From contig CALXSY010000001.1 of assembly GCA_944391285.1 (NCBI GenBank), positions 62,001 to 126,000 on the forward strand: 64,000 nt of DNA, given 5' to 3'. Below, piece by piece: positions 7,784 through 36,297 of the stretch. A program made the position numbers and the translations under genes. The notes below the pieces were generated by a model that did no database searches, was not told the origin of the DNA, and saw nothing but the letters and a program-made list of their open reading frames with translations. The stretch's first letter is position 1. Every line of letters begins with the position of its first letter. This DNA comes from an uncultured Clostridia bacterium (GTDB lineage: Bacteria; Bacillota; Peptococcia; Peptococcales; Peptococcaceae).

Positions 7784-7796
7784 TGAAACCTTGATT

Positions 7797-7832
7797 TAAA
7801 ACGGCTGTCCTTATTCGGACAGTCGTTTTTTG
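7797..7832 (+). terminator. Intrinsic terminator after malic enzyme
   Basis: ACGGCTGTCC and GGACAGTCGT pair around a TTATTC loop, followed by TTTTTTGTT. Confidence 0.9.
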
Positions 7833-7887
7833 TTAAGATATTGAGAAAAAAAGTTGGTAAAAATAAGTTAAAGAAGTATAAAAACCA

Positions 7888-7916
7888 TTGACAGCGTCTT
7901 ATAAATAGGTTACAAT
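7888..7916 (+). promoter_or_regulatory. Sigma-A promoter of tuf copy 1
   Basis: TTGACA (7888-7893), a 17-base spacer and TACAAT (7911-7916) give a near-consensus promoter about 65 bases before the tuf start, just after the terminator of the previous operon. Confidence 0.9.
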
Positions 7917-7980
7917 ATAGGCTGTATGGGTATATAAAGCTTGTTTGCTCAGATGACTATTTTTAGGAGGAGTATAAAAA

Positions 7981-9171: not shown

Positions 9172-9191
9172 TTTAGGCACGCTGTGCGCTT

Positions 9192-9223
9192 AAAAGGAAT
9201 AGGCAATTGCCTATTCCTTTTTT
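9192..9223 (+). terminator. Intrinsic terminator of tuf copy 1
   Basis: GGAATAGGC and GCCTATTCC pair around AATT, with flanking A and T runs. The same element follows tuf copy 2. Confidence 0.92.
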
Positions 9224-9238
9224 GAAATGGAGGGAAAA

Positions 9239-10597: not shown

Positions 10598-10630
10598 GGC
10601 AGGATTTTAGATATTTTTTGGTGAAAGTAA

Positions 10631-10659
10631 TTGTAAAATATATTGCTTTGTGTTAAAAT
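10631..10659 (+). promoter_or_regulatory. Probable promoter of ftsH
   Basis: TTGTAA (10631-10636), 17 bases, then TAAAAT (10654-10659), about 55 bases before the ftsH TTG start. Confidence 0.6.
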
Positions 10660-10712
10660 AAAACTCAAAGCATTTATTGAGAATTACTATTTATTAAGGA
10701 TGGTGGAAGTGT

Positions 10713-12776: not shown

Positions 12777-12832
12777 TGCTATTGAGCAAGAAAAACCTTG
12801 CTTAGGATAAAAGATTAAAAGGAGAAAAGAAA

Positions 12833-13282
12833 ATGGAAAGAACTTTTGCAATGATTAAACCCGATGGTGTACAAAGAGGATTGGCCGGCGAAATCATCGC
12901 TCGCTATGAAAGAAAAGGCTTGCGGATCGTAGGCATGAAAATTATGCAGGTAACCGAAGAGATTGCCAATGCTCATTATGCAGAGCATGTAGGCAAACCT
13001 TTCTTTAAAGGCTTGGTTGAATACATCACTGCTGCTCCGGTAGTTGCTTTAGTATTAGAAGGCGCTAATGCTGTAGCAGAGGTTAGAAAAATGAATGGTG
13101 CTACCAATCCGGCTAATGCTGACATGGGCACTATCCGCGGTGATTATGCACAGGAAGTCGGACGCAATATTGTTCATGGTTCCGACAGTGTAGAAAGTGC
13201 TGAAAGAGAAATTGCTATTTACTTCAAACCGGAAGAATTATTGAGCTACGACTATTTGCCGAACAAATGGTTATATGAATAA
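12833..13282 (+). CDS. ndk: Nucleoside diphosphate kinase
   Basis: 149 residues, the usual NDK length. It starts [16 protein letters not shown] and carries the phospho-accepting His115 in NIVHGSDS. It transfers the gamma phosphate between nucleoside triphosphates and diphosphates. An AAGGAGA RBS precedes the ATG. It sits between ftsH and rpoB and is closed by a terminator, so it is not part of the rpo transcript. Confidence 0.96.
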
Positions 13283-13288
13283 GATTTT

Positions 13289-13314
13289 AAGCCGTCCTCA
13301 GGGACGGCTTTTAC
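13289..13314 (+). terminator. Intrinsic terminator after ndk
   Basis: GCCGTCC and GGGACGGC pair with a TCA loop and are followed by TTTTA. Confidence 0.85.
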
Positions 13315-13417
13315 ATTTTGCGATTTGCTAAAAAGATTATGAAGGCTAAATGAGCGCTTTTTTAGTAAATATAACGGTTGGCGAGGAAAAAAAGAGGTAA
13401 AAGTTTGAAAAAAATGC

Positions 13418-13446
13418 TTGACAAGCCATTTTGAATGTGCTATGAT
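13418..13446 (+). promoter_or_regulatory. Sigma-A promoter of rpoBC
   Basis: TTGACA (13418-13423), 17 bases, TATGAT (13441-13446), with an extended -10 TG at 13438-13439. The transcript would have a leader of about 125 bases, which includes a GCTGCA/TGCAGC hairpin near 13522-13537. Confidence 0.9.
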
Positions 13447-13577
13447 AAAACAGCATGACTAAATGATAGAATGGATATGTTTTACGATAAAAATGTTAAA
13501 ATATTTCCATTAGATACATATGTGCTGCAATGTGCAGCCATAAATGCGAAAGATAATCTTTAAGGGGTGAGTGAGCA

Positions 13578-16500
13578 TTGGTCAATTATATGGCACATGC
13601 ACTGACGAAAAGAAAGAGCTTTGCAAAGATCGAAGAAATCATGGAAATGCCTAATTTGATCGAAATCCAGCGGGATTCTTACCAATGGTTTTTGGATGAG
13701 GGCTTAATGGAGATGTTTGAAGAGATATCTCCTATTTCTGATTTTACCGGCAATTTATCTTTGGAGTTTGTGGATTATAGCTTAGGTGAGCCGAAATATG
13801 ATGTAGACGAATGCCGTGAAAGAGATGCGACATTTGCTGCACCTTTGAGAGTAAAAGTTCGGCTGATTAATAAGGAAACCGGCGAGGTAAAAGAGCAGGA
13901 AGTCTTTATGGGAGATTTTCCGCTGATGACGAAAAAAGGCACATTTATTATTAATGGTGCTGAGCGTGTTATCGTCAGCCAATTGGTGCGTTCACCGGGT
14001 GTTTATTATTCCAAAACCATTGACCAATCGGGCAAGGCTATCTTTGGTGCGACTATTATCCCCAATCGCGGCGCTTGGTTAGAGTTTGAAACCGATGTCA
14101 ATGAAAATATTTTTGTGCGTATTGACCGCACCCGTAAGGTACCGGTAACGGTGCTTTTAAAAGCTTTGGGCTATTCCAGCAAAGGTCAGATTTTGGAGAT
14201 GTTCCACAATGATGAACGCATTCGTTTGACCTTGGAGAAGGATCACACTGAAAACGAAGCAGAAGCTTTGATCGAAATTTATAAACGCTTACGCCCCGGA
14301 GATCCGCCGACGGTAGAAAACTCCCGCAGCTTGCTTTATTCTTTATTTTTTGAGCATCGCCGCTACGATTTCGCTAAAGTCGGTCGGTATAAAATCAATA
14401 AAAAGTTAGGCTTAGATACCGATCCTAAATTAAAAACTATTACTAAGGAAGATATTATTGCTACAATAGAGTACCTCTTGCATTTGATTAACGATGAAGA
14501 AGGCTATGAGCCCGATGATATCGACCATTTGGGCAACCGCCGCATCCGTTCGGTGGGTGAATTATTGCAGAACCAATTCCGCATCGGTTTAACTAGGATG
14601 GAGAGAGTTATTCGTGAGAGAATGACTATTCAAGATGTTGAGGGTGTTACTCCGCAGGGCTTAATCAATATCCGCCCGGTAGTAGCGGCAGTGAAAGAGT
14701 TCTTCGGCTCCAGCCAGTTGAGCCAGTTTATGGATCAGATCAACCCATTAGGTGAGTTAACCCATAAACGCCGTTTGAGCGCCTTGGGACCCGGTGGTTT
14801 GAGCAGAGAGAGAGCGGGATTTGAAGTTCGTGACGTTCACCATTCTCACTATGGTCGTATGTGCCCGATTGAGACTCCTGAAGGACCAAACATCGGCTTG
14901 ATCAACTCTTTGAGTACTTATGCCCGAGTCAACCAATACGGCTTTATTGAAACACCTTACCGCAAAGTCGATAAGGAAAGCGGCAAAGTAACCAAAAATA
15001 TCGAATATTTAACTGCCGATGAAGAGGAAAAATACACTATCGCCCAAGCTAATACTTTGCTTGACAGCGAAGGTGTAATTTTAGATAAAAAAGTTAATGC
15101 CCGCCGCGGCAGTGAAACTTTAGTTGTGTTGCCAACTGAGGTTGATTATATGGACGTATCGCCGAAGCAGGTGGTATCTATCGCTACGGCATTGATTCCG
15201 TTCTTAGAGCATGACGATGCTAACCGTGCTTTGATGGGTGCCAACATGCAGCGCCAAGCTGTGCCTTTATTAAAAACTGACGCGCCTTACATCGGCACCG
15301 GTGTTGAGTTTAAAGCAGCTTACGACAGCGGTATTGTGGCTATTGCCGATCATGACGGCGTGGTCGAGTATGTCAGTGCCGATGAAATCATCATCCGTAC
15401 CAATTCCGGCAACAGAGACCGCTATAAACTCACTAAGTTTGAGCGCTCCAACCAAGGCACTTGCGTCAACCAAAAACCGTTGGTTAAAAAGGGTCAGATA
15501 GTTAAAGCCGGAGCTGTTTTGGCAGACGGACCTTCTACAGACCATGGCGAGCTGGCATTGGGTCGCAATGTTTTGATCGCCTTTATGAACTGGGAAGGTT
15601 ATAACTACGAGGACGCTGTTTTATTAAGCGAAAAATTGGTCAAAGAGGATTATTATACCTCTATTCATATCGAAGAATACGAATGCGACGCTCGCGATAC
15701 TAAATTGGGACCGGAAGAAATCACCCGGGATATTCCCAATGTGGGTGAAGATGTTTTGAAAAACTTAGACGAAAAAGGCATTATCCGCATCGGTGCTGAA
15801 GTTCGCCCCGGCGATATTTTGGTTGGCAAGGTTACCCCTAAAGGCGAAACCGAGTTAACCGCCGAAGAAAGACTGTTAAGAGCCATCTTCGGCGAAAAAG
15901 CCCGTGAGGTTCGTGATACTTCTTTGCGCGTGCCTCATGGTGAATCAGGAATTATCGTTGATGTTAAACTCTTCACCAGAGAAAACGGTGATGAAATGTC
16001 CCCCGGTGTTAATGAAATCGTGCGGGTCTACATTGCCCAAAAGAGAAAAATCTCCCAAGGTGACAAAATGGCAGGTCGACATGGTAATAAGGGTGTTATT
16101 TCCCGCATTATGCCGGAATGTGACATGCCGTTTCTTCCTGACGGCACTCCTGTAGAAATTGTGCTCAATCCTTTGGGCGTACCGAGTCGTATGAATATCG
16201 GTCAGGTATTGGAAGTGCATTTAGGCATGGCAGCCAAAGCATTGGGACTGCATTTAGCAACTCCAGTCTTTGACGGTGCTACTGAGCAGGATATCGAAGA
16301 TTTGCTCACTCAGACAGGCTATCCGACAACCGGTAAATTCCGTCTTCGTGACGGCCGTACCGGTGAGGAATTTGACAATCCTGTTACTGTCGGCTATATG
16401 TATTATCTCAAATTAGCCCACTTGGTAGACGACAAAATCCATGCTCGTTCTACCGGTCCTTACTCGCTGGTTACTCAGCAGCCTTTGGGCGGTAAAGCTC

Positions 16501-17021
16501 AATTTGGCGGACAGCGTTTCGGTGAGATGGAGGTTTGGGCATTAGAGGCTTACGGCGCTTCCTACACCTTGCAGGAAATCATGACTGTGAAGAGTGACGA
16601 TATCGTCGGCCGTGTTAAAACTTATGAGGCTATTGTTAAAGGTGAAAATATTCCGGAGCCGGGATTGCCTGAATCCTTCAAAGTATTGATGAAAGAGTTG
16701 CAAAGCTTGTGCTTAGATGTCAATATTTTGAATGAATACGGCGAAGAAGTGGAAATCGGAGACGATGACGATGATTTGATGGAGCCAAGCAAAGATTTAG
16801 GCTTGGATATTGATCTGGGCAAGCCAAACGGTCCGGTGATGGATACCAATGGCGAATTAGCCAATGAGTATTTGACCTTGGATCAGGACGGCGAGATCAT
16901 CGAAGATGAGGAAGAAGACGATTTTGACAGCGAGGATTTCCCCGATGATGCCGATATGGAGGACGAAAACTTCGATTTTGATGCTTTAGGCGAATTCGAG
17001 GAGGATTCCGAGGAGTTTTAA
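13578..17021 (+). CDS. rpoB: RNA polymerase beta subunit
   Basis: 1,147 residues. Expected blocks are present: the rifampicin region around [22 protein letters not shown] and [10 protein letters not shown], and [15 protein letters not shown] and [27 protein letters not shown] near the C terminus. The TTG at 13578 is preferred because AAGGGGTG lies eight bases before it; the ATG at 13590 is too far. The final 70 residues are strongly acidic ([20 protein letters not shown]) beyond the usual C-terminal end. The rifampicin-site residues look wild type. rpoC follows 59 bases later. Confidence 0.98.
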
Positions 17022-17080
17022 TAATTAAAGGCAAGTGCTTAGATAGATCAGGTTGATGAGATGAGAAGGGAGCGAGCCTT

Positions 17081-20000
17081 TTGTTGGATGTAAACAATTT
17101 TGATTGTATGCGTATCGGGTTAGCATCTCCTGAAAGAATCAGAGAATGGTCCTGGGGAGAAGTAAAGAAACCTGAAACTATAAATTATCGAACCTTAAAA
17201 CCGGAGCGTGACGGTTTATTTTGCGAGCGTATCTTTGGACCGCAAAAAGACTGGGAATGCTCCTGTGGTAAATACAAACGCATTAGATACAAAGGCATAG
17301 TCTGCGATCGATGCGGTGTAGAGGTTACCCGCAGCAAGGTACGCCGTGAAAGAATGGGTCATATCGAACTGGCGGCACCTTGTTCCCATATTTGGTATTT
17401 TAAAGGAATTCCCAGCCGCATGGGTATCCTTTTAAATATCTCCCCCAGACAGTTGGAAAAAGTAATTTACTTTGTTTCCTATATAGTATTGGATCCCGGC
17501 GAAACCAATTTGGATAAAATGCAGCTTTTAAGCGAAAGCGAGTATCGTGAATTGCGTTCGCAATATGGTGATACTTTTAGAGTAGGTATCGGTGCGGAAG
17601 CAATCAAAGAGCTGTTGATGGAGCTGGATTTAGATTCATTATATGCTGAGCTGAAAGAAGAAATCCGCACTACCTCCGGACAGCGCAATATTAAAGCTGT
17701 GCGCCGTATGGAAGTAGTAGAGGCGTTTAAAAAGTCCAAAAATGAGCCCAGCTGGATGATTCTCGATGCGCTGCCGGTTATTCCGCCGGAAATCCGCCCG
17801 ATGGTTCAATTAGACGGCGGCAGATTTGCGACCAGCGACTTGAACGATTTATATCGCCGGGTTATCAATCGTAACAATCGTTTAAAACGTTTGTTGGATT
17901 TGGGTGCGCCGGAAATTATCGTGCGCAACGAAAAACGCATGCTGCAAGAAGCAGTTGACGCTTTGATCGATAACGGCCGCCGCGGCAGAGCAGTAACCGG
18001 ACCGGGCAACCGTCCGTTAAAATCCTTGAGCGATATGCTTAAAGGCAAGCAAGGTCGTTTCCGTCAAAATCTTTTAGGTAAACGTGTTGACTACTCCGGA
18101 CGTTCGGTTATCGTTGTCGGACCGGATTTGAAGATGCATCAGTGCGGTCTGCCGAAAGAAATGGCTATCGAATTATTCAAGCCTTTCGTTATGAAAAAGT
18201 TAGTTAACGATGGCTATGCGCATAATATTAAAAGCGCCAAACGCATGGTTGAGCGTTTGCGTCCGGAAGTATGGGGAGTATTGGAAGATGTTATCAAAGA
18301 TCATCCGGTCTTGTTAAACCGTGCTCCGACCTTGCATAGATTAGGTATTCAAGCCTTTGAACCGGTGTTGGTAGAAGGCAGAGCTTTGCGTTTGCATCCG
18401 TTGGTTTGTACAGCGTACAACGCTGACTTCGACGGTGACCAAATGGCTGTGCACGTGCCGCTTTCCAGTGAGGCTCAAGCAGAAGCCCGCATTTTGATGC
18501 TGGCTGCGCACAACATTTTGAACCCTAAAGACGGCAAACCGGTAACTACTCCTACTCAGGACATGATTTTGGGTTCTTACTATTTGACTATTTTGAGAGA
18601 GGCAAAAGACCAAAATGGTGAACCGGTATTAGGCGAAGGCAAATTATTTATGGATAATGATGAGGCACTTTTGGCTTATGATGCCGGAGTTGTTCATCTG
18701 CAAGCCAAAATTTATGTTCGTCAGCCCGACGGCAGCCGCAAGGAAACTACTGTCGGACGAATTATCTTTAATTCGGTAATCCCGCCGGAAGTAGAGCTGG
18801 ATAAAGATCCTAAAGCTTATCCGGTTGGCAAAAAGCAATTAGGCAATATCATTGCCAAATGCTACAGCCGCTTGGGCGCTACCGCTACTGCGCAAATGCT
18901 GGACGGTATTAAATCCTTAGGCTTTAAATATTCTACCAGAGCCGGTATTACCGTAAGCTTCAGCGATATCATCATTCCTGATGAGAAAAACGCTATTTTG
19001 GCAGAAGCTGACGAAAAGGTAGAAAAAATCACCAGAAAATATCGCCGTGGTTTAGCTACCAATGACGAAAGATATCAATTAGTCATCGATGTTTGGAACA
19101 AAGCCACTAAAGATGTAACCGATGCTTTGCTGGCAAACTTAGGTAAATTCAACAATATTAACATGATGGCAACCTCCGGTGCCCGCGGTAATAACCAACA
19201 GATTAGACAGCTTGCCGGTATGCGTGGTCTGATGGCTGACCCGTCCGGTAAAACTATCGAGATGCCGATCAAAGCTAACTTCCGTGAAGGCTTAACAGTC
19301 TTGGAATACTTTATTTCCAGCCACGGTGCTCGTAAAGGTTTGAGTGACACCGCCTTAAGAACTGCGGACAGTGGTTATTTGACCAGACGTTTGGTTGACG
19401 TTGCTCAAGAGGTTATTGTCCGTGAGGATGACTGCGGTACTACTGAAGGCTTGATTGTCGAAAGCATTATGAACGGCAATGAGGTTATTGAACCGTTAAA
19501 AGAGCGCATCGCCGGCAGATATATTATGGAGGATATTATCAATCCTGCTACCGGTGAGATCATGGCTCATAATGGTGATTATATAGAAGATGAACTGGCA
19601 GAGGAGATTCAAAATGCCGGAGTTAAACAGGTTAAGATTCGTTCTGCTTTGACCTGCAAGAGCCATTACGGTGTTTGCCGCAAATGCTATGGTCGCAATT
19701 TGGCTACCGGCGGTCATGTAGATATCGGTGAAGCAGTGGGCATTATTGCTGCTCAATCTATCGGTGAGCCCGGCACTCAGTTAACCATGCGTACCTTCCA
19801 TACCGGCGGTGTAGCCAGCGGCGACATCACTCAAGGTTTGCCCCGTGTTGAAGAGTTGTTCGAAGCACGCAAACCAAAAGGTCAGGCAATAATCGCGGAA
19901 AACAGCGGTGTGGTCAAATTAGGCGAAGTTAAAAACCGCCGGGAAATTGTCATCACTTCTCCCGACGGAGAAATTGCCAGTTACTTGGCTCCGTTCGGCG

Positions 20001-23936: not shown

Positions 23937-25127
23937 ATGGCAAAACAAAAATTTGAACGTACAAAACCCCATGTTAACATTGGAACAATCGGTCACGTAG
24001 ACCATGGTAAAACCACCACTACTGCAGCAATCACCGCAGTATTGGCATTGAGAGGTCAAGCAACCGCAACCAAATTCGATGAAATTGACAAAGCACCGGA
24101 AGAAAAAGAGCGTGGAATTACCATTAACACCGCGCACGTAGAGTATGAAACCGACAAACGTCACTATGCACACGTAGACTGCCCCGGTCACGCTGACTAT
24201 GTAAAGAACATGATCACCGGTGCAGCACAAATGGACGGAGCAATCTTGGTAGTATCCGCAGCTGACGGTCCAATGCCGCAGACTCGTGAGCACATTTTGT
24301 TAGCTCGCCAAGTAGGTGTACCGTACATTGTAGTATGGATGAACAAATGCGACTTAGTAGATGACGAAGAGTTGTTAGATTTAGTAGAGATGGAAATCAG
24401 AGAATTATTAAATGAATATGAATTCCCCGGCGATGAGGTACCGGTAATCAGAGGATCCGGCTACCAAGCATTGCAAGACCCAACCGGACCATGGGCAGAT
24501 AAAATCATTGAATTGATGAATGCAGTAGACGAGTACATTCCTACTCCTGTACGTGACATCGACAAACCGTTCTTGATGCCGGTAGAGGATGTATTCTCCA
24601 TCACCGGACGCGGCACAGTAGCAACCGGACGTGTAGAGAGAGGCGCAGTAAAAGTAGGCGATGAATTACAAATCGTAGGTATCAAACCGGAGACCAAGAA
24701 AACCGTCTGCACCGGTGTAGAGATGTTCCGTAAATTGTTAGACATGGCAGAAGCAGGAGATAACATCGGCTGCTTATTGCGCGGTGTAGACAGAAAAGAA
24801 ATCGAAAGAGGACAAGTATTGGCAAAACCAGGCAGTATTACTCCTCATACCAAATTCCATTGCGAAGTATATGTATTGACCAAAGAAGAGGGTGGCAGAC
24901 ATAAACCATTCTTTGATGGCTACAGACCGCAGTTTTATTTCAGAACAACTGACGTAACCGGCGTAATCAAATTACCGGAAGGTGTAGAGATGGTAATGCC
25001 CGGTGACAACGTAAAAATGGAAGTAGACTTAATCACAACCGTAGCAATGGACAAAGGCTTGCGTTTCGCAATTCGTGAAGGCGGACGTACAGTTGGCTCC
25101 GGCGTTGTATCTGACATTATTGAATAA
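23937..25127 (+). CDS. tuf: Elongation factor Tu, copy 2 (str operon)
   Basis: 396 residues, identical in protein to copy 1 and apparently in DNA. This is the canonical copy at the end of rpsL-rpsG-fusA-tuf, 15 bases after fusA. GTPase motifs are [13 protein letters not shown] and NKCD. It has the same codon bias as copy 1. The absence of silent differences suggests ongoing gene conversion. Confidence 0.98.
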
Positions 25128-26580: not shown

Positions 26581-27786
26581 TTAAAGATTTAATCCGGCTA
26601 AGATATCGGGAAAAATCTCTAAGCTGCGGGGTAAAATGCCTTGCATATAGGCGATAAGGGTGCCGTAATTGGTGATAGGAATATCTTGATCCACCGCGCA
26701 TTTGGTGCGGTAGCGCATTTCCCGCTCTTTGAGCATACAGCCGCCGCAGTGGATAACCAAAGCATAAGGCGACAAATCGTCGGGAAATTCGGTGCCGGAA
26801 ACAGTTTTAAAGACCAAATCTTTTTTGGTGTATTCTTTGAGCCAGCAGGGAATTTTGACACTGCCGATATCATCGCACTGGCGGTGATGGGTGCAGCCTT
26901 CAGCCATTAAAATGACATCGCCGTCCTTTAAATGGTTGATAGCCGCTACTCCTTTTACTGCCGCCTCAAGCAAGCCTTTGTAGCGTGCCATGAGAATTGA
27001 GAAGGAGGTCAGGGGGATATCCGCAGGTGTCTCGGCAGAAACTCGGGCAAAAACCTGGCTGTCGGTAATAACCATGGCAGGCTTTTGGGCTAAGCCGGCT
27101 AAAGTTTGGGTTAATTCGGATTCTTTGCAGACGATGCTGATGGCATTCGCCTCCAAAATATCGCGGATAGTCTGCTGCTGAGGCAAAATCAAGCGACCCT
27201 TGGGTGCTGCTTTGTCGATAGGCACAACTAAAACCAGAAAATCGCCGGGGTTGATTAAATCACCGACCAGCCTTAAGGTCATATCCTCATTGGGCACGGA
27301 AGCGGCGATTTTTTCTTTTAATTCATAAATGCCGGACTTGGTTTCAGCGCTGACATACATTACATTGCCCTCTGAGGGCGGAACCTCGCGGAGCAAATCG
27401 CATTTGTTGTAAACGATGATGTGGGCAATATTTTTGGCTTTAAACAAATCCAGCAATTCCCGGTCACAGACCTGCAAGCCTTCAGTGGCATCTACTACCA
27501 AAATGGCGATGTCGGTTTTGTTTAAGACATTTTTGGTTTTGCGCACTCTGAGCTCGCCCAAAGAGCCGACATCATCAAAGCCGGGAGTGTCAATAATCAT
27601 AACCGGTCCTAAAGGCAGAAGCTCCATAGCCTTATAGACCGGGTCGGTAGTAGTACCCAAAACATCGGATACTACTGCCAAATCCTGACCGGTTACGGCG
27701 TTGACCAAGGAGGATTTGCCGGCATTGCGGCGTCCAAAAAAGCCGATATGAATTCTTTCGCCGCTGGGGGTATCATTTAATCCCAT
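26581..27786 (-). CDS. hydF: HydF-like GTPase ([FeFe]-hydrogenase H-cluster maturation)
   Basis: 401 residues. The N-terminal GTPase has GRRNAGKS (18-25), a TTT switch, DTPGFDD and NKCD. The C-terminal part holds GCTHH and, further on, HCGGC, matching the CxH...HCxxC ligands of the HydF [4Fe-4S] cluster. HydF is the scaffold that carries the di-iron precursor to HydA. ATG at 27786 is chosen because GAGAGGTGA lies five bases before; a GTG at 27795 overlaps that site. It is the last gene of the nine-gene unit, 15 bases after the solute-binding protein. No hydrogenase or hydG is in the window, so it may serve another metallo-enzyme. Confidence 0.9.
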   Translation of the reverse strand: MGLNDTPSGERIHIGFFGRRNAGKSSLVNAVTGQDLAVVSDVLGTTTDPVYKAMELLPLGPVMIIDTPGFDDVGSLGELRVRKTKNVLNKTDIAILVVDATEGLQVCDRELLDLFKAKNIAHIIVYNKCDLLREVPPSEGNVMYVSAETKSGIYELKEKIAASVPNEDMTLRLVGDLINPGDFLVLVVPIDKAAPKGRLILPQQQTIRDILEANAISIVCKESELTQTLAGLAQKPAMVITDSQVFARVSAETPADIPLTSFSILMARYKGLLEAAVKGVAAINHLKDGDVILMAEGCTHHRQCDDIGSVKIPCWLKEYTKKDLVFKTVSGTEFPDDLSPYALVIHCGGCMLKEREMRYRTKCAVDQDIPITNYGTLIAYMQGILPRSLEIFPDILAGLNL

Positions 27787-27801
27787 AAAAATCACCTCTC
27801 A

Positions 27802-28920
27802 TTAATAAGCAGAAGCGCTGGTGGAAGGAGTAAAGATTTGCGCTACTTGTTCATCGGTTAATTCAACACCGAATACTTCCAGGTAATAATCCTTTACTTC
27901 CTGATTTAAGTCAATATCGCTGAAAAGTTCGGGATAAGCAGTTTGCGCTAACCATAATAAGGTTAAAGGCGTATCTACACCGGGAGTGTAGCTGCGGTAC
28001 ATTCCTAAAGGCATTTTGTAAACATTTTTGTCTTGAATAGCTTGCACAACACTCCAGTCATAGGAGCCGATGGTGTTATTGTATAAATCTTCCGGCATAG
28101 CCGAAGTGAAATTGGTAATAAAAATGGTGTCCGGATTCCAGGAGTAAACCTGCTCCATATTAACGGCAACAGAGTTATCGGCGGTTAATTCGTTGGCTAC
28201 GTTAACAGCGCCGATAGCATCTGCCCACCATTGACCGAAGAAATGAGCACCGGAGGTAACCAAAGTAGTTTCGCTGTAGTTAAAGAGGAAGAAGACTCTG
28301 GCTCTTTCTTCATCGCTTAAGTTAGCAGTGCGTTCTTGAATCATATCGTAAATTTCATAGCTTTTGTCGTGAACTAAAGCAGTGCGGTCATTATCCGGCC
28401 AGATTTCGCTTAAAAGAGCGATCCAGTTGTCTAAAGTTTCGATAGCATCGTAATCCCATTTGTTGACGGAGACGGCAACAGCGCTTAAGCCGGCTTGGGT
28501 TAACTGCTCGCCGATGGACGGATTGGCAGCATTGTAAAAGACGATATCCGGTTCAAGGGAGAGCAATTCTTCGATATTGAGCTCGCCGCCTTGTGCATAG
28601 GAGGTTTCAACGTCTAAAATGTCTGGATAAAGCTCGCCCAAAAGACCGTTTTCGGCAGCAGTCATGCATTCCGGCGGCATGCCGACGATTTTTTCGGCAG
28701 AGTCAAAGAAGATAGCAAAAACAGAAGGCAAAGGCCAGATGCCGTGGAAGGCAACTCTTTGGGGATTTTTTATAACTTGTACTTGGTTGTCATTGTGGTC
28801 GGTAATGGTGATGTACTCTGTTTCACCGGATTGTTGTTCATCTTGCGCACCGCAGGCAGCAAGGGTTAAGCATAAAGCTAAAATTAAGATGAGGCTGATA
28901 AATTTAGTAAATTTACGCAT
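27802..28920 (-). CDS. ABC transporter solute-binding lipoprotein (iron-complex/cobalamin type)
   Basis: 372 residues. A signal sequence ends in the lipobox LAAC with Cys23, so it is a lipoprotein. The body matches the periplasmic-binding class III fold of iron-siderophore, haem and cobalamin binders: NPQRVAFHGIWPLPSVF, LNIEELLSLEPDIVFYN, WNPDTIFITNF. The start lies two bases after the upstream component-1 gene, so it is tightly coupled to the nitrogenase-like proteins rather than to its own permease and ATPase at 33.2-35.3 kb. The ligand is unknown; a tetrapyrrole, metal chelate or bare metal are possible. Confidence 0.87.
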   Translation of the reverse strand: MRKFTKFISLILILALCLTLAACGAQDEQQSGETEYITITDHNDNQVQVIKNPQRVAFHGIWPLPSVFAIFFDSAEKIVGMPPECMTAAENGLLGELYPDILDVETSYAQGGELNIEELLSLEPDIVFYNAANPSIGEQLTQAGLSAVAVSVNKWDYDAIETLDNWIALLSEIWPDNDRTALVHDKSYEIYDMIQERTANLSDEERARVFFLFNYSETTLVTSGAHFFGQWWADAIGAVNVANELTADNSVAVNMEQVYSWNPDTIFITNFTSAMPEDLYNNTIGSYDWSVVQAIQDKNVYKMPLGMYRSYTPGVDTPLTLLWLAQTAYPELFSDIDLNQEVKDYYLEVFGVELTDEQVAQIFTPSTSASAY

Positions 28921-28921
28921 G

Positions 28922-30058
28922 TTAATTCTCCTTTTTTAATGGTTTATTGATTAAATTAGGCAATTTGTCCCGGTACATTCTGCCGGAAAAAGCTTCGTGG
29001 GGCAAATTGTAAAATTTAGCTGAGGAAGGAACAACAGGCTCATATAAGCCGTCGGCTATAACGAGCGGCGCATCTTTTAAGAGCGCTGTCAAATCATCTT
29101 CATCGGTGCAGGTGCGGTCAATTTCACGCAGAAGCTCCGGAGAAGCCGCTAAAGGGGTGACAACCTGGCAGTTTAAATTTAAATCCATTGCCAGGCTTTG
29201 GGCTAAGGAGCAAGCGGTTACGCTTTCGCCGATGATAATGCCCTGAGGCTTGCAAGCGGTATTTTTAGCATAGCTTACGCTTGAGTTGCCGGAAGCTATG
29301 GCTGCCTTTAAGTCGCCGGCAAGCTTTTGGGAAAATTTTTCGCCGTAAGGCACGCCAACTACATAAGGAATACCGTATTTTTTTTGAAATAGCTTAGCTA
29401 AAGGCAAGGAATCGGAAGAAAGCACCAGATTAACCTCTGCTTGAGCACTTTGGGCAATTTCCTCAAGGCTTGAGCCCATGCTCCAGCAGGATTGAATTTT
29501 AAAGCCTTGACCTTCGAGAAAAGCTCGGATATCTTCCACTTGGGAGTTGATGGAGAAATCCAAAGGCGTGGCTCCCAAAATATTAACCGCACCTTTGACC
29601 TTAGCAGTCTGCGGGCAGACAAAGCGGTTAAATAACGCTTGGTAAGCCTGCGAAACGCCGGAAAGGTAGGAGTGCATGCCGTTGGTGGCGATGCCGAGGG
29701 AAGGTATGCCGCATTTATTTTCGCACATGGTGGCAAGAGCGGCAAAATCCACTCCGCTGATCAGCGGAATAGGAGTGCCGCAGATGGCGATAAAATTAGG
29801 GTTTAACTCTTTAGCGGCAACGAGAATATCGTTTACTAAGCGGTCATCGCCGCCCATGACTGCTTCCATTTCAGTTAAAGCAGAAACATAAACAGCGCTG
29901 TCCATATAATAAGCTCGTGGTTCATCGTGGGTATGATAAGTAGAGTTGCAGCCGGAGGCATCGTGCATGATGACGAGTCCGCCTAACTCATACAAGGCTG
30001 AGCAGACGCCGGAGGTATCGGCGGTGTAGGCCGAAATAAATGATGCAGTTTGTTTCAT
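28922..30058 (-). CDS. Nitrogenase component 1-like protein, shorter subunit
   Basis: 378 residues, shorter than NifD/NifK (about 480-520). The fold-typical pieces are HDASGCNSTYHTHDEPR, NPNFIAICGTPIPLISGVDF and KYGIPYVVGVPYGEKF. Cys19, Cys37 and Cys93 have the order and rough spacing of the three P-cluster/[4Fe-4S] ligands of the family. I see no clear match to the NifD Cys275/His442 FeMo-cofactor ligands. The ATG overlaps the stop of the previous gene by four bases (ATGA). It probably forms a heteromer with the product of 30055-31377. Substrate unknown. Confidence 0.82.
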   Translation of the reverse strand: MKQTASFISAYTADTSGVCSALYELGGLVIMHDASGCNSTYHTHDEPRAYYMDSAVYVSALTEMEAVMGGDDRLVNDILVAAKELNPNFIAICGTPIPLISGVDFAALATMCENKCGIPSLGIATNGMHSYLSGVSQAYQALFNRFVCPQTAKVKGAVNILGATPLDFSINSQVEDIRAFLEGQGFKIQSCWSMGSSLEEIAQSAQAEVNLVLSSDSLPLAKLFQKKYGIPYVVGVPYGEKFSQKLAGDLKAAIASGNSSVSYAKNTACKPQGIIIGESVTACSLAQSLAMDLNLNCQVVTPLAASPELLREIDRTCTDEDDLTALLKDAPLVIADGLYEPVVPSSAKFYNLPHEAFSGRMYRDKLPNLINKPLKKEN

Positions 30059-31377
30059 ATCAGTTCACACCCCCAAGCTTTCTTTTGCACCAATTTGGCG
30101 GTATCTTTTTCCTTAAGGAAGGCTTCGATGATTAAATCCAGCATTTTTAAAATGCCGTTAAAGCCGTAAAAACCGCCATTGTTGATTGTATTGACAAAAT
30201 AAGGAGTATCGGTAAAGTAGGCAGCCTTTTGTCCTATAGCCAAAACTTTAGTGCCGGTGGAGTAATGATTGAACCGCATTTTAAAATTATTGACCGAAAA
30301 AATCTGCAATTGAGGATAATGCTCCTTTAAATAGTAAAAATCATCTTTTTCCACCGCTTCAAACCCGTCGGCATAGATGCGGCAGACATTAAAGCCGTGG
30401 TCCAAAAGCAAGCGCGCCAGGCTTAAAATGCGCATAGAAACCGTATAGTCAATAGCAATCGGCGCATCTTGAATAATTTCTTTGGCTTGCATTAATTTGG
30501 CTTCAATCAGTTCTTGGTAATGGCTGTAATCCGGCAAAGTAATATCAAAATATTGAGCTAATTTTGTCAAAGTAGCATTCATCTCGTCGTAATTATAGCT
30601 CGTCGGCAAATAGAGATAATCCTGACCGTAGGTTTCTTTTAAATATTTAACTGCCGGCCAGGCTACCGAGTTGTAGAAAATATTGACAGCACCTTTAGCC
30701 ATCTCCTGATAGTCTTCGTAAGTATGGCAGTCATGAATCTCTGTGACCTTGAGATCGTTAGTGCTTAAAAGCTTGATTAAATCGCTTTCTTTGTCGGTAG
30801 CCAGATTATTGCCGATGATATTGACTCTTTTGGGGTCTAAATCTTTTTTGTGCCAGAGCGAGTACAGCTGCCGGCACATCAATTCTTCCGGATTAAGCCC
30901 GCTTTTGCGCATGGTAGGAGTCATGTAGCAGTCGATAAAGTCGATGTGAGGGAATTTTTCCCGCAAGGTTTTGTAGACATAGTTTAAATCACAGGCGATA
31001 AAATGATGAATACAGCTGGTATAAAGCAAAACAGCCCGGGGAGTGTATTTCAGCTTGCTTAAAATATCGCTGACCCCGTCGATAATCAACGATTCCATAT
31101 CGCCGTTTAAAACATTGTTTTCCTGCACAAAAATGCTGGAGAAACGCTCCATTTTGCCCATTTCGGCGGCTGTTAAAACGACACCGCGCAGACAGCCTTG
31201 AGCACAGACAAATATTTCATGGGCTTCGGGAATAAGCATGCCGGTATTAACAATATTCCAAGTACCTCTGACTGCCGCCGAATATTCGAGTGTAGGGTCA
31301 AAGGGTGCCGGAAAAGGAGCATCTTTAATGGCTTTCTGGGCGATGGCTCCTTGAGTTAAATCTACTTTTTTTAACAT
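30055..31377 (-). CDS. Nitrogenase component 1-like protein, longer subunit
   Basis: 440 residues of the nitrogenase component 1 superfamily. FVCAQGCLRGVV (Cys58, Cys62) and LYTSCIHHFIACD (Cys122, Cys129) occupy the places of P-cluster ligands in NifD/NifK. The next parts (KRVNIIGNNLATDKESDLIKL, IAIDYTVSMRILSLARLLLDHGF) resemble the Rossmann-like domains of the family. The ATG shares one base with the stop of the NifH-like gene (TAATG), so translation is coupled. It is likely one half of the catalytic component that receives electrons from the NifH-like protein. It is not a true nitrogenase subunit by length or motif set. Confidence 0.85.
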   Translation of the reverse strand: MLKKVDLTQGAIAQKAIKDAPFPAPFDPTLEYSAAVRGTWNIVNTGMLIPEAHEIFVCAQGCLRGVVLTAAEMGKMERFSSIFVQENNVLNGDMESLIIDGVSDILSKLKYTPRAVLLYTSCIHHFIACDLNYVYKTLREKFPHIDFIDCYMTPTMRKSGLNPEELMCRQLYSLWHKKDLDPKRVNIIGNNLATDKESDLIKLLSTNDLKVTEIHDCHTYEDYQEMAKGAVNIFYNSVAWPAVKYLKETYGQDYLYLPTSYNYDEMNATLTKLAQYFDITLPDYSHYQELIEAKLMQAKEIIQDAPIAIDYTVSMRILSLARLLLDHGFNVCRIYADGFEAVEKDDFYYLKEHYPQLQIFSVNNFKMRFNHYSTGTKVLAIGQKAAYFTDTPYFVNTINNGGFYGFNGILKMLDLIIEAFLKEKDTAKLVQKKAWGCELI

Positions 31378-32144
31378 TATTTCACCCCGCTTTGGCTGAG
31401 GCGAAGGATATTATCTGCCAGCTTGCGGTATTCCTGCGCTTGCTCGCTGTCAGGATAAGCCTCCAGCACACACATGTGCTGATCTTCTGCCAGCTGCACC
31501 AGTTCATTGCGGTTAATGGTGCCGACGATGGGAGCAGAAAAATCTTGGGCTAATTGGCTGACTTTTTCGTCCTCGTGGGGAACATTGCGTTTGTTTAAAA
31601 TAAAGCCGCCTAAGGAAGCATAGCCGCGGTTTTTAAAATTGGCGACGGCGGTGGCAATATTGGCGGCGGCGTAGATGGACATATTTTCGCCGCTGGTGAC
31701 GATATAAACCATGTCAGCGTAGCCTTGGCGCATGGGCATGGAGAAACCGCCGCAAACCACATCACCGGGGCAGTCGTAAAGCACTACATCGGGAGTGAAT
31801 TTTTCATAAGCGCCTTTTTCGTTCAATTTTTCTAAAGCGGCAATGATACCTCTGCCGGCACAGCCAACTCCCGGAGTAGGACCGCCGGATTCTACGCAGA
31901 TGACACCATTAAAGCCAATTTGCGTAACGTCATCTAAGGTGAAATCATCGCCTTTTTGGCGCATAGTTTCCAAAATGCTCATCATAGGTTTAGTGCCGTG
32001 ATAAAGATTTAAGGTCGAATCGGATTTAGGGTCGCAGCCGATCTGCATGACTTTTAATCCTTTTTCGGCTAAAGCGGCGGAAATATTGCTCAAGGTGGTG
32101 GATTTACCGATGCCGCCTTTGCCGTAGATTGCTAATTTTATCAT
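31377..32144 (-). CDS. NifH-like ATP-dependent electron-transfer protein
   Basis: 255 residues. P-loop GKGGIGKST (8-16), CDPKSDST, and the two Cys that hold the intersubunit [4Fe-4S] cluster of Fe proteins: Cys95 in GVGCAGRG and Cys131 in GDVVCGGFSMPMR. Family members (NifH, BchL, BchX, CfbC, MarH) couple ATP hydrolysis to one-electron transfer to a component 1 partner. The ATG at 32144 is chosen from AAAGGAG upstream; a longer start has no RBS. Two component 1-like genes follow directly. The neighbours do not match nif, bch, cfb or mar gene sets. Confidence 0.92.
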   Translation of the reverse strand: MIKLAIYGKGGIGKSTTLSNISAALAEKGLKVMQIGCDPKSDSTLNLYHGTKPMMSILETMRQKGDDFTLDDVTQIGFNGVICVESGGPTPGVGCAGRGIIAALEKLNEKGAYEKFTPDVVLYDCPGDVVCGGFSMPMRQGYADMVYIVTSGENMSIYAAANIATAVANFKNRGYASLGGFILNKRNVPHEDEKVSQLAQDFSAPIVGTINRNELVQLAEDQHMCVLEAYPDSEQAQEYRKLADNILRLSQSGVK

Positions 32145-32158: not shown

Positions 32159-33208
32159 TCAAGATATACTGAAATAATCGCCTTTGGCACAATAGAGAGT
32201 GTAGCCGATTTCTTCCATGTGCTTTTGCAGTACCTGCAATTCTTCGCCGCCGTCTTCGCCGCTTATGGCTTTGTTGTCATAAAGGGTGTATTTTTTGCGG
32301 TTGGTGAAGGGGGAGACATTGGGCATGATGACATTGCAGCCGGCTAAAACTCCGGCCTTTCGTCCGTCGGTATCCAATGAACCCAAGGCAGTAGTGGCAG
32401 GCAAAAGCACTGTTGGCAGCATGATGCGGCAAAGTGAGAGCAAAAATATAGTTAAATCCACACTGCCGTGGGCATATTGGCTAAAGGGCGTCTGATGATG
32501 AGGGATAAAAGGTCCCATGCCGATCATCTGCGGTTTAAAGCTCGCCATGTAATACATATCTTCCGCTAAGGTTTGCACTGTTTGAAAGGGAGCGCCGATC
32601 ATAGCGCCGCAGCCGGTTTGATAGCCGATGCTTTTTAAATCTTCCAAACACTTCATGCGGTGCTCAAAACTCATTTCAGCGGGGTGGAGCGCATTATAAT
32701 GCTCCTTGGTAGCTGTTTCGTGGCGGAGCAGATAACGGTTGGCGCCTGCCTCAAAAAACGCTTGGTAGGAGTCATGTTCCTTTTCCCCGATGGAGAGGGT
32801 AATAGCACAGTCAGGATAAGCGGCGTGAATAGCCTTGATGATTTCTAACATCTTTTCATCGGTGTAGTAGGGATCTTCGCCGCTTTGCAGGACAAAGGTG
32901 CGAAATCCCCAGTCGTAAGCGTTGGCACAGCAGTTTAAAATATCCTCCAAACTCATGCGGTAGCGGCTGCACTCGGAATTGCTTTTGCGGATACCGCAAT
33001 AGTAGCAGTCGTTTTTGCAAAAGTTGGTGAATTCGATAATGCCGCGGAAAAATATCCGACTGCCGAAATGTTTTTGGGCTATTTTTTGCGCTGTTTCTTG
33101 AGCATAGGCTTTATCCTCTGGGGTATAAGTGGAGATAAGCTGAGCAAATTCCTCGCGGGATAAAATGTGCTCTTCTTTTAATTTATCGATAAGCTCTTGA
33201 TTATTCAT
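32159..33208 (-). CDS. hydE: HydE-like radical SAM enzyme
   Basis: 349 residues, the usual HydE length. The radical SAM motif is CKNDCYYC with Cys64, Cys68 and Cys71. FGSRIFFRGIIEFTNFC, VLQSGEDPYYTDEKM, LRHETATKEHY and GPFIPHHQTPF match the HydE/BioB-like family. HydE acts on the HydG-made iron-Cys-CO-CN synthon in H-cluster assembly. No hydG is nearby, so either hydG lies elsewhere or this enzyme has another substrate in the nitrogenase-like pathway. It lies between the ABC ATPase and the NifH-like gene with 12- and 14-base gaps. Confidence 0.85.
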   Translation of the reverse strand: MNNQELIDKLKEEHILSREEFAQLISTYTPEDKAYAQETAQKIAQKHFGSRIFFRGIIEFTNFCKNDCYYCGIRKSNSECSRYRMSLEDILNCCANAYDWGFRTFVLQSGEDPYYTDEKMLEIIKAIHAAYPDCAITLSIGEKEHDSYQAFFEAGANRYLLRHETATKEHYNALHPAEMSFEHRMKCLEDLKSIGYQTGCGAMIGAPFQTVQTLAEDMYYMASFKPQMIGMGPFIPHHQTPFSQYAHGSVDLTIFLLSLCRIMLPTVLLPATTALGSLDTDGRKAGVLAGCNVIMPNVSPFTNRKKYTLYDNKAISGEDGGEELQVLQKHMEEIGYTLYCAKGDYFSIS

Positions 33209-33220: not shown

Positions 33221-34282
33221 TTAAGTTAAGGTAGCGTAAGTAGCTTTGACATTGACCTTAGGCAAAAGGCTCAAAGCATGAACCAATTCCTCGATGCGTT
33301 CTTTGGGCGCTTTTAAGGTGATATTGATAATGTAAACATTGTCTTCTTTATAAGGCATACCCATGCGCCCGATTAAATACTCGCTGTAGCAATGCAGGAG
33401 ATTGTTGATGTTTTCCGCCTGGGCAAAATCGCCGTTGATGATGGAAATGACGGCTAAAGCTTCTTTGTCGGGAGTATCGGTGTAGTTTAAAGGATCGGTA
33501 AGCACGCTTAAGGGGATAACGTCGGTAAACATCTGCCCCGGGGTTTCTACCTGACCGATGACCGCCTTGACGCCAAAGGCTTTGGCGATGTTTTCTTCGG
33601 TAATCAGACTGCGGGTCGGTCCGAATTGATATTCGCCGCCTTTGGAGAGAATAAAAGCCTTATTGGAGCGCTGAAGAGCGTGGGCGGGATAGTGGGTGTT
33701 GAAAAGGCAAATCATGCCTTGAGCTGCCAAAGCAGAAATGGTATCTAAAACGATCAGTTGGTTTTTAAAATCCAAATTGCTCTCCGGCTCATCAAGAATG
33801 AGAATCTGGGCGTTGCTGGCTAAAGCCCGGGCGATTAAAACCATTTGCAGCTCGCCGCCGCTTAATTGGTTGCAGTGCTTGCCTTTAAGCTTGGTGATGT
33901 GCAGGCGTTCCAACAATTCATCGACCAACTCAAAATCCTTAGCCTGGGGCTTGCTGAAAAAGTTTAAATGACTGCCTCTGCCCAAAAGCACCATTTCTTC
34001 CACGCTGAATGCCGAAGAAACGCCTTTGGCTTGGGGCACATAAGCTATTTGCTGCCAAAGATTTTTGGCAGAGATAGTGCGGATATCTACTCCGTTTAAG
34101 TAGCTTGCTCCCTGGCGCCAGGGAAGCAGTCCCATAAGGCACTTGAGGAGAGTTGTTTTGCCGGCGCCGTTGGGTCCTAAGATGGCTAAAACATCGCCGT
34201 CGGTAACAGAAAGATTGACATTTTTAAAGATTAATTTATCTTTGCGGTAGCCGAAGCTAGCGTCTTTTATTTCTAATTTCAT
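33221..34282 (-). CDS. ABC transporter ATPase fused to a TM1266-like regulatory domain
   Basis: 353 residues. The FepC/BtuD-type ATPase occupies about 1-250: Walker A GPNGAGKT, signature LSGGELQ, Walker B ILILDEPESNLD. Residues from about 272 to the end form a separate domain (EALAVISIING, YLIGRMGMPYKEDN, LKAPKERIEELV). This resembles the whole of the small regulator at 35496-35756, including the shared IGRMG(I/M)PY. TM1266-type proteins are linked to [FeFe]-hydrogenase systems. By analogy with the C-terminal sensor domain of MetN, it may gate transport by binding a small ligand. ATG at 34282 is supported by GGAGG nine bases before and overlaps the permease stop (ATGA). Confidence 0.87.
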   Translation of the reverse strand: MKLEIKDASFGYRKDKLIFKNVNLSVTDGDVLAILGPNGAGKTTLLKCLMGLLPWRQGASYLNGVDIRTISAKNLWQQIAYVPQAKGVSSAFSVEEMVLLGRGSHLNFFSKPQAKDFELVDELLERLHITKLKGKHCNQLSGGELQMVLIARALASNAQILILDEPESNLDFKNQLIVLDTISALAAQGMICLFNTHYPAHALQRSNKAFILSKGGEYQFGPTRSLITEENIAKAFGVKAVIGQVETPGQMFTDVIPLSVLTDPLNYTDTPDKEALAVISIINGDFAQAENINNLLHCYSEYLIGRMGMPYKEDNVYIINITLKAPKERIEELVHALSLLPKVNVKATYATLT

Positions 34283-35298
34283 AATTGCCAACCTCCGCTT
34301 TTACGCATGAGAATGATGAAAAATGGTGCGCCGATAATCGCCGTTAGGATGGAAATAGGAATTTCCGCCGCTAAAAGGCTGCGGGCAATAGTATCAACGA
34401 TGACCATAAAGCTGGCGCCCAAGGAAGCCGAAGCCGGCACCAAAGACAAATGATTGTTGCCAAAACGCATCCGGCAGATGTGGGGAATCAAAAGTCCCAC
34501 CCAGCCAACCTGACCGCACATGGCGATGCAGGCACCGGTCATCATAGTTGCGCAGATAATGGTGATGAGGCGCAGGGTGCGGATATTAACACCGCTGGAT
34601 TTGGCTTCGTCGTCGCTGAGGGGAAGAATATTGAGCCGCCAGCGCAGAGCATAGAGCACAACAGCGCCGATAATGATTAAAGGAGCGCCGATTTTTAAGG
34701 AATCAAAGCCGGTTTGCTGCAAACTGCCCATCAGCCAGTAAGTGATTTCCGGCAGCTGGGAGTCAGTATCGGCGGTGTATTTAACTAAGGAAACCAAGGC
34801 GCTGAAAAGTGAGCCGATCATGATACCGCCCAAAACTAAGCTGGTAGTAGAGCGGTTTTTGCCGCTGGAGGACAAATAGGTTAAAAAGACAGCGACAGCG
34901 CCGAAGAAAAAAGCGGCGATTTCTATGCCTATAAGATTAAATCCCAATAAAATACCCAGCGCTGCGCCAAAGGAAGCGCCGCTGGCTACACCTAAAGTGT
35001 CCGGCGTGGCTAAAGGATTAGCAAATAAGCTTTGGAAGGCTAAACCGGAAAGGGACAGCCCTAAGCCAACCAATAAAGCCAGGATAATGCGGGGAAGCCG
35101 GACATTATAGATGGTAGCGTAGGTAAGGGGATTGACTGTAATATCGGAGTTAAAGGAAGAATGCAGTGCATTTAAGACTTCAGCGGGCGAAATATTCATC
35201 CGTCCGATGCCTAAAGCAAAAAATGCGCAGATAAAAGGCAAAATTAACAGAACGATTTTGCTTAATAGGGATAATTCACCGATAAGTGGTTTTTTCAA
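34279..35298 (-). CDS. FecCD/BtuC-type ABC transporter permease
   Basis: 339 residues and about ten membrane helices. Family signatures are NVRLPRIILALLVGLGLSLSG, FANPLATPDTLGVASGASFGA, LGGIMIGSLFSAL and GWVGLLIPHICRM. It forms the channel for iron-complex, haem, cobalamin or similar substrates. The TTG at 35298 is selected: GGAGG lies ten bases upstream, and any longer start would run through the terminator hairpin at 35323-35349. It is coupled to the ATPase gene by a four-base overlap. Confidence 0.9.
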   Translation of the reverse strand: MKKPLIGELSLLSKIVLLILPFICAFFALGIGRMNISPAEVLNALHSSFNSDITVNPLTYATIYNVRLPRIILALLVGLGLSLSGLAFQSLFANPLATPDTLGVASGASFGAALGILLGFNLIGIEIAAFFFGAVAVFLTYLSSSGKNRSTTSLVLGGIMIGSLFSALVSLVKYTADTDSQLPEITYWLMGSLQQTGFDSLKIGAPLIIIGAVVLYALRWRLNILPLSDDEAKSSGVNIRTLRLITIICATMMTGACIAMCGQVGWVGLLIPHICRMRFGNNHLSLVPASASLGASFMVIVDTIARSLLAAEIPISILTAIIGAPFFIILMRKSGGWQL

Positions 35299-35315
35299 GA
35301 TTAGTACACCTCCAA

Positions 35316-35349
35316 AGAAAAAAGGCTGCACCAAAAAAAGGTGCAGCCT
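35316..35349 (-). terminator. Leader terminator (attenuator) before the permease
   Basis: AGGCTGCACC and GGTGCAGCCT form a perfect 10-bp stem with a seven-base loop. On the minus strand TTTTTTC follows, directly before the permease RBS. Its 5' arm can pair with the conserved hairpin motif upstream (35405-35441). Confidence 0.88.
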
Positions 35350-35495: not shown

Positions 35496-35756
35496 TTATT
35501 CTTGATGGGAGACCACATGGGAAAGGACGGTTTTGGCGCTAACTCCTTTCAGACGACCGACTTTGCCGGATAAAGCATTGATGATATCCTGGGGAGCGTC
35601 AATGGCAACACTGATAAGGTTAATGCCTTTATCGCGGTAAGGTATGCCCATGCGTCCGATGATATATGTACCGTATTCGTGCAAAATAGCATTGACTCCG
35701 TCAACGGAATTTCGTTCTTCCACAATAATAGCCACCACGGCAACTCTGCTTTCCAT
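35496..35756 (-). CDS. TM1266-type iron-only hydrogenase system regulator
   Basis: 86 residues. It starts ESRVAVVAIIVEERNSV and has the family core YIIGRMGIPYRDKG and SVAIDAPQDIINALSGKVG. The family has a small ferredoxin-like/ACT-like fold and normally lies with hydEFG; it has no helix-turn-helix, so direct DNA binding is not evident. ATG at 35756 has AGGAGGG upstream; a longer start has none. It is the first gene of the nine-gene unit, behind a strong promoter and a leader terminator. A homologous domain is fused to the ABC ATPase two genes downstream. Confidence 0.9.
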   Translation of the reverse strand: MESRVAVVAIIVEERNSVDGVNAILHEYGTYIIGRMGIPYRDKGINLISVAIDAPQDIINALSGKVGRLKGVSAKTVLSHVVSHQE

Positions 35757-35879: not shown

Positions 35880-35907
35880 ATTATAGCAAAGAGTTAAATT
35901 TTGTCAA
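35880..35907 (-). promoter_or_regulatory. Sigma-A promoter of the nitrogenase-like operon
   Basis: On the minus strand TTGACA (35902-35907), a 16-base spacer and TATAAT (35880-35885). Both hexamers are consensus. Confidence 0.9.
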
Positions 35908-36055: not shown

Positions 36056-36077
36056 TAAAATATTAGCTATAGTAAGC

Positions 36078-36297
36078 TTTGATGAGGACAAGAAAGAAAG
36101 GACAAGCACTAAAGAGAATGACGTCTCAGGCTGCAAGCGTCTGTGCCGAGCTTATCTTTTACCGCCTCGGAGCAGTTAGGGCGAACCCTAACCGGCTTAT
36201 CCCCGTTAAAGGATCGAGAGTGGGAGCTATGCTTCAACTTGGGTGGAAACACGGGAAATATATTCTCGTCCCAAAAGGGACGGGAATTTTTTTTATT
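36078..36297 (+). promoter_or_regulatory. T-box leader of thrS
   Basis: A structured leader of about 220 bases. The antiterminator core reads CTTGGGTGGAAACACGGG, close to the T-box consensus, with TGGA to pair with the tRNA acceptor end. Stem I closes GAGG with CCTC, and ACC (36161-36163), a Thr codon, sits where the specifier is expected. TTCTCGTCCC (36263-36272) and GGGACGGGAA (36277-36286) form the terminator with eight T. Uncharged tRNA-Thr should allow read-through into thrS. The specifier call is inference. Confidence 0.9.

Follow-up and report, generated by a model that had tools for sequence, protein, structure and literature searches.

A TM1266-family domain fused to an importer ATPase in an operon of hydrogenase maturation and nitrogenase-like genes

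The TM1266 protein family (TIGR03959 / PF21699) carries a sole label, putative iron-only hydrogenase system regulator. Among importer ATPases, those of the MetN type bear a C-terminal NIL/C2 sensor domain; the substrates of FecBCD-type importers are metal chelates, siderophores, heme, and corrinoids. NifEN is a scaffold in cofactor assembly, HypE and HypF make cyanide, and HydG is the usual enzyme making the CO and cyanide of hydrogenase; its lack in the genome analyzed here hints at a cofactor-building route that has not been described. Acetogens with HydE and HydF and no recognizable HydG have been reported, for which the explanation is unsettled (PMC9431212). How [NiFe] maturation obtains its CO ligand under anoxic conditions is likewise unsettled (PMC12134894); the gene clusters described below make both questions testable.

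Within the 64,000-nucleotide stretch of DNA analyzed here (the window), a TM1266-family domain forms the C-terminal tail of an importer ATPase. The initial annotation knew of no such fusion, and none was found described in the openly licensed PMC papers searched. TM1266 proteins are encoded in hydrogenase operons, and the presence of the domain on a transporter ATPase encoded within such an operon provides a concrete handle on the role of the family, since ATPase rates are readily measured.

The fusion protein and its operon

The fusion gene lies on the minus strand, running from position 34282 down to 33221 (stop codon at 33221-33223), and encodes 353 amino acids. Residues 1-271 (33470-34282) comprise an ABC ATPase domain of the FecE/BtuD type (PF00005, 111.7 bits) and a linker, and all of the motifs of ABC importer ATPases are intact: Walker A (GPNGAGKT) at residue 36, the Q-loop at Q84, the signature (LSGGE) at 140, Walker B (ILILDEP) at 160, and the H-loop at H197. 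The top NCBIfam matches of the ATPase domain are importer ATPases for corrinoids, F420-0, heme, and Fe-dicitrate, each scoring below its equivalog cut-off. The tail occupies residues 272-353 (33224-33469). PF21699 matches residues 276-347, scoring 61.8 bits when the whole protein is searched and 65.5 bits for the isolated tail (curated cut-off, 27 bits), and TIGR03959 matches the isolated tail with 72 bits (curated cut-off, 60.8 bits); the latter profile is not among the 25 NCBIfam matches listed for the whole fusion protein. The assignment of the tail to the TM1266 family in the initial annotation is therefore borne out, both profiles exceeding their cut-offs. The tail had also been aligned by eye with a stand-alone regulator at 35496-35756, and BLASTP recovered the same relationship (71 amino acids, 34% identity, gap-free, E 2e-14); both sequences match PF21699 and TIGR03959, and IGRMG(M)P, at residues 304-310 of the fusion, is common to the two. 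A phmmer search of the tail against the PDB gave a sole match, to the TM1266 structure 2NZC (E 5e-6). At E <= 1, Pfam gave no tail match to NIL (PF09383), TOBE, or other ABC C-terminal sensor families, and no NIL match for the whole protein either, the scan covering the best 25 of 28 matches to the whole protein and both matches to the tail. The ATPase-TM1266 fusion is certainly real.

The operon, all on the minus strand, has the order TM1266, FecC permease, tailed ATPase, HydE, NifH-like, two NifE-like subunits, binding protein, HydF. The initial annotation was right about family and fold but overlooked this context, i.e., HydE, HydF, and the NifH/D/E-like genes. The first gene encodes the stand-alone TM1266 family protein (TIGR03959, 112.7 bits; PF21699, 110.3 bits) and is followed by a FecCD/BtuC-type permease (34279-35304; PF01032, E 6e-87), the start of which is placed near 35304 by its RBS; the longest ORF begins at 35415. 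Beyond the fusion gene lie HydE, the radical SAM H-cluster maturase (32159-33208; TIGR03956, 536.5 bits, cut-off 254.6), and a NifH-like reductase (31377-32144; PF00142, E 6e-89) that, at 318 bits, falls below the equivalog cut-offs (394/402) of CfbC and NifH. Two PF00148 proteins come next, a NifD/NifE-like subunit ("NifD", 30055-31377), whose family profile has NifE as its best PDB match, and a second, NifE-like subunit ("NifE", 28922-30058; TIGR01283, 74 bits, below cut-off) with the same best PDB match; both Oxidored_nitro subunits are thus nearest in sequence to NifE among solved structures. Membership of nitrogenase NifHDK or CfbCD is not indicated, as no subunit in the window comes near an NCBIfam equivalog cut-off for NifH, NifD, NifK, or CfbC. 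The last two genes encode a substrate-binding protein (Peripla_BP_2, 27802-28920; PF01497, E 9e-15) with an N-terminal signal and a lipobox-like LAAC, and HydF, the H-cluster scaffold GTPase (26581-27795; TIGR03918, 561 bits, cut-off 325.6).

By pattern, a perfect consensus promoter with a TG extension lies ahead of the operon (35880-35907, minus strand). A strong terminator-like hairpin and T tract on the same strand (35323-35349), between the TM1266 and permease genes and directly before the permease RBS, is a possible attenuator of the transporter genes. Folding of the leader gave a z of -3.5; a riboswitch was considered and rejected, the Rfam match being at chance level (E 0.85). Elsewhere in the window, on the plus strand, a T-box leader precedes thrS (36070-36276; 79.6 bits, below the Rfam gathering score of 93), and two EF-Tu genes (7981-9171 and 23937-25127) have translations that read identically.

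We propose, as a moderately probable explanation, that an importer and a nitrogenase-like scaffold have been drawn into cofactor assembly for [FeFe] hydrogenase, where the tail would act as a regulatory or docking domain and tie uptake to assembly of the H-cluster. The fusion protein would be the ATPase of a FecBCD-type importer, working with the permease at 34279-35304 and the binding protein at 27802-28920. This importer would be one component of a nitrogenase-like/ABC cluster that is widely distributed (NifH, two NifE-like subunits, SBP, FecC, ATPase); in the window lineage, the cluster appears to have been captured by H-cluster biogenesis, placed as it is among TM1266, HydE, and HydF in a genome without HydG. 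What the importer takes up may be an iron complex or a cofactor precursor, and this compound would, together with the nitrogenase-like scaffold, feed assembly of the 2Fe subcluster or H-cluster. A link of the cluster and its importer to hydrogenase maturation is, taken by itself, likely.

Fold and possible roles of the tail

An AlphaFold2 model of the isolated tail (pLDDT 86.7, from a two-row alignment) has the order beta-alpha-beta-beta-alpha-beta and, as the initial annotation had anticipated, superposes on 2NZC, with a Z of 15.9 and an rmsd of 0.9 Å over 79 residues (Foldseek E 2e-7). The next-best folds are NikR C-terminal domains (Z 12-13) and then ACT domains. When the full-length protein was modeled, the ATPase was well predicted, linker residues 264-271 had low confidence, and the order of strands and helices in the tail was unchanged, at a lower confidence than in the isolated-tail model. 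The models support a ferredoxin-like fold of the NikR-C/ACT type. Neither an unrelated ABC C-terminal domain nor a lack of structural likeness to TM1266 was found when both were checked. The idea of a MetN C2/NIL-like tail was not supported: there is no NIL match among the Pfam matches listed at E <= 1, and the nearest folds are TM1266, followed by NikR-C and ACT; the MetN C2 domain is not among the structural matches listed for the tail, which are part of the full set.

Some residues that are invariant in the TM1266 family are retained in the window tail (N293 and IGRMGMP), but SGKxG has been lost; the latter is kept in the tails from four genomes of a sister genus and in the stand-alone TM1266 protein of the window. 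NikR binds nickel through three His and one Cys, two of which we take to lie in the strand that matches NVYIINITLKA of the tail. By inspection, that strand has no His and no Cys, and the tail sequence offers no obvious counterparts to the nickel ligands.

As a NikR-C/ACT-type regulatory domain, the tail would most likely couple the ATP cycle of the importer to H-cluster assembly. To do so, it would bind either a ligand or a partner in assembly, for which the stand-alone TM1266 protein, itself perhaps active at the same step, is a candidate, and would adjust the ATPase to the state of assembly and so gate transport. The initial annotation put forward a cofactor or metal as what the tail may sense, and suggested that the stand-alone regulator may share this ligand. 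We consider the chances that the tail is a ligand gate on the ATPase to be about evenly balanced. Alternatively, it may be a docking module and not a sensor: by pairing with either the stand-alone TM1266 protein or HydE/HydF, it would let the imported compound pass directly to the maturation machinery. The tail and the stand-alone protein are encoded in one operon, TM1266 genes adjoin hydE in relatives, and the tail has few conserved stretches and no obvious metal site, all of which would suit docking; members of the NikR-C/ACT fold family are, however, mainly ligand-binding regulatory domains, and we judge the docking explanation to be rather unlikely.

Nitrogenase-like clusters and the absence of HydG

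The order NifH-NifD-NifE-SBP-FecC-ATPase is conserved in Clostridia, Spirochaetes, Synergistetes, Chloroflexi, and Methanospirillum; the block is widespread and apparently undescribed, no paper describing it having been found in the openly licensed PMC literature. The cluster scan returned at least 573 relatives, the best 80 of which were kept as named loci. In those 80, no HydE, HydG, or TM1266 lies beside the cluster, and the sole HydF match there (L178) is weak (26% identity, 69 bits). The base function of the cluster is not hydrogenase maturation, because many relatives are in genomes without HydF or HydG (e.g., Treponema, Tissierella, Lactococcus hodotermopsidis, and Methanospirillum). 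Note also that the NifD-like subunit of three sister-genus loci (L023-L025, from G010, G008, and G006, respectively) is only ~250 amino acids, versus ~400-440 in relatives, and that their NifE-like partner has Ser where the GC(T/N) motif otherwise has its conserved Cys.

The window transporter might have kept the general function of the cluster, in which a metal chelate or a compound resembling a tetrapyrrole would be taken up and reduced, with the hyd genes sharing only its promoter and the tail being a lineage-specific regulator that has no role in H-cluster assembly. The many cluster genomes lacking HydF and HydG fit such an explanation, as do the absence of any hyd gene clearly beside the cluster in the best 80 of at least 573 relatives and the BtuCD/FecCDE-like best matches of the ATPase. 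We nevertheless think it unlikely: the tail is from a family that takes its name from hydrogenase operons, the nif-like genes have HydE and HydF on either side, and in three other genomes the clade of the window NifD/NifE goes with HydF or HypFDE and with the absence of HydG.

Recruitment to H-cluster assembly, the reading we prefer, would have occurred in a genome (G000) that encodes four [FeFe]-hydrogenase catalytic domains (PF02906), HydE, and HydF. A gene-by-gene profile search of G000 for HydG gave only a 76-bit cross-match at the hydE gene (cut-off 312). Like most of the genomes used, G000 is a multi-contig assembly (36 contigs), but it is rated 100% complete, and an assembly gap is an unlikely reason for the absence of HydG, calls of which are from one profile throughout. 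HypD also had no match in G000, and HypDEF was rejected on that ground as its source of CN and CO. For sister-genus genome G006, a gap is excluded at the known locus, which is collinear with that of G008 except that hydE-hydG are missing from inside the contig; the flanking blocks are separated by 0.3 kb in G006 (L095, 10380-10661) and by 2.8 kb in G008 (L098, 7244-10061). G006 retains HydF and five hydrogenase domains; its hydE is absent in the two views taken, at the G008-syntenic locus and among the HydG-profile cross-matches.

In a phylum sample of 289 genomes, 161 have HydF, 10 of which have no HydG above the cut-off. The cluster occurs in four of these 10 (G000, G114, G185, and G262) versus 5/151 genomes with both HydF and HydG (Fisher p 8e-4), a value that is only indicative because the four include a congeneric pair and kinship was uncorrected. 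Among HydF-containing cluster genomes, HydG is missing from 4/5 tailed genomes versus 2/21 untailed ones outside the window NifD/NifE clade (Fisher p 0.005, kinship uncorrected). G008 is the tailed genome that keeps HydG, and G327 and G345 have HydF and the cluster without either HydG or the tail. Replacement of HydG by the nitrogenase-like/ABC cluster as a whole is ruled out, as many cluster genomes are without HydF and most of those with HydF have HydG; the HydG-less pattern is restricted to the tailed lineage and a single clade of NifD/NifE. Separately, three genomes (G031, G035, and G041) have several [FeFe]-hydrogenase catalytic domains and no HydF or HydG match; in the first two, TM1266 is present alongside a distant HydE homologue (~29% identity).

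Some genomes that have [FeFe] hydrogenases and HydF, and are without HydG, carry nitrogenase-like genes beside HydF or HypF-HypD-HypE. G114, G185, and G262 are all HydA-positive, HydF-positive, and HydG-less, and in each, HypFDE lies between two nitrogenase-like gene sets (L187 [G114:C49:27001-47000], 6000-18512; L188, 8884-19543; L189, 3682-14275). The order in G114 is TM1266, NifH, NifD, NifE, HypF, HypD, HypE, NifD2, NifE2, NifH2, HydF; that in G185 and G262 is NifH, NifD-NifE as one fused ORF, HypF, HypD, HypE, NifD2, NifE2; HydF is encoded elsewhere in the genome, as is a HydE homologue (35-37% identity). IQ-TREE groups the window NifD and NifE in one clade with those of the second set in each of the three genomes (100/99 and 99/97, respectively). 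The sister-genus proteins are very divergent, and their placement beside the window clade is weak (NifD 80/99, NifE 81/58). From gene content and the NifD/NifE clade, four genomes in three families therefore share a nitrogenase-like pair tied to HydF/HypFDE, without HydG. We tentatively suggest, as a possibility somewhat short of probable, a HydG-independent route to the H-cluster in which a NifH/NifE-like scaffold, together with the TM1266-tailed FecBCD-type importer (window) or HypF-HypD-HypE (G114, G185, and G262), would supply an iron-CO-CN unit to HydF, the tailed ATPase being a gated entry point. No HydG-less nitrogenase-like route is described in the openly licensed PMC literature searched.

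Origin of the fusion and comparison with described systems

Across 46 genomes of the class, PF21699 is found mostly in small frames; frames of 359-406 amino acids containing it occur only in the window genome and in four genomes of one sister genus, G006, G008, G010, and G011 (the last two are incomplete, at 79% and 76%). These four have a continuous ATPase-tail ORF of 367-369 amino acids, and their recurrence means that the fusion is no assembly accident. All others among 80 related cluster ATPases from many phyla (the best 80 of at least 573 relatives) are without the tail. Sister-genus tails score 102-107 bits with PF21699, versus 65 bits for the window tail, which is the divergent outlier among the five. 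Within the sister genus, tail dN/dS is 0.03-0.05 versus 0.07 for the ATPase (three ATPase dS values are saturated), showing that the tail is under purifying selection and more constrained than the ATPase. Neutral read-through joining two adjacent genes, with no function of its own, is a very improbable explanation of the fusion: the divergence of the window tail, its loss of SGKxG, and an in-frame MTQ in the sister-genus linkers that could be a former start codon would fit, but the low tail dN/dS and the single open frame in five genomes already contradict it for the sister genus.

The ATPase tree (support 96) and the permease tree (98, with a long-branch warning) join the five tailed lineages, which tentatively favors a single origin of the fusion; the TM1266-domain tree has too few columns to resolve and gives the window tail a very long branch.

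Compared with described systems, the fusion resembles MetN methionine importer ATPases in its general architecture, with a ferredoxin-like, putatively regulatory domain behind an importer ATPase; MetN combines a NIL/C2 sensor with the MetI permease, whereas the fusion combines a TM1266 tail with a FecCD-type permease. The FecE/BtuD/FhuC importer ATPases share the ATPase domain, a FecCD permease, and a Peripla_BP_2 binding protein with the window, but the window ATPase has the extra tail, and NifH and NifE-like partners. The TM1266 family, represented by 2NZC, agrees with the tail and window in sequence family, fold, and an operon with HydE and HydF; its members are known as stand-alone proteins of ~80 amino acids, and the window copy is fused to an ABC ATPase.

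The group IV nitrogenase-like enzymes (Isr, the methylthio-alkane reductase Mar, and CfbCD) are like the cluster in that NifH and NifD/K-like subunits are tied to uptake of a compound, and among the systems in the papers found they come nearest to it, e.g., the isethionate reductase IsrBHDK (PMC11423573). Isr is also linked to a radical SAM protein, as is the window operon, but has SsuABC-type transporters and its own radical SAM protein, where the window has the FecBCD type, HydE/HydF, and TM1266 (PMC11423573). With respect to CfbCD and NifH, the window NifH-like protein scores below both cut-offs. HydE, HydF, and TM1266 of the HydEFG pathway of [FeFe]-hydrogenase maturation are present in the window too; unlike the canonical pathway, the genome has no HydG match, and nitrogenase-like and transporter genes lie between hydE and hydF. 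Finally, of the HypCDEF system, which assembles the Fe(CN)2CO unit of [NiFe] hydrogenase, the related clusters in G114, G185, and G262 contain HypF, HypD, and HypE; HypD was not found in the window genome, and in those three clusters, in contrast to HypCDEF, the Hyp genes stand beside NifE-like genes and, in G114, also HydF.
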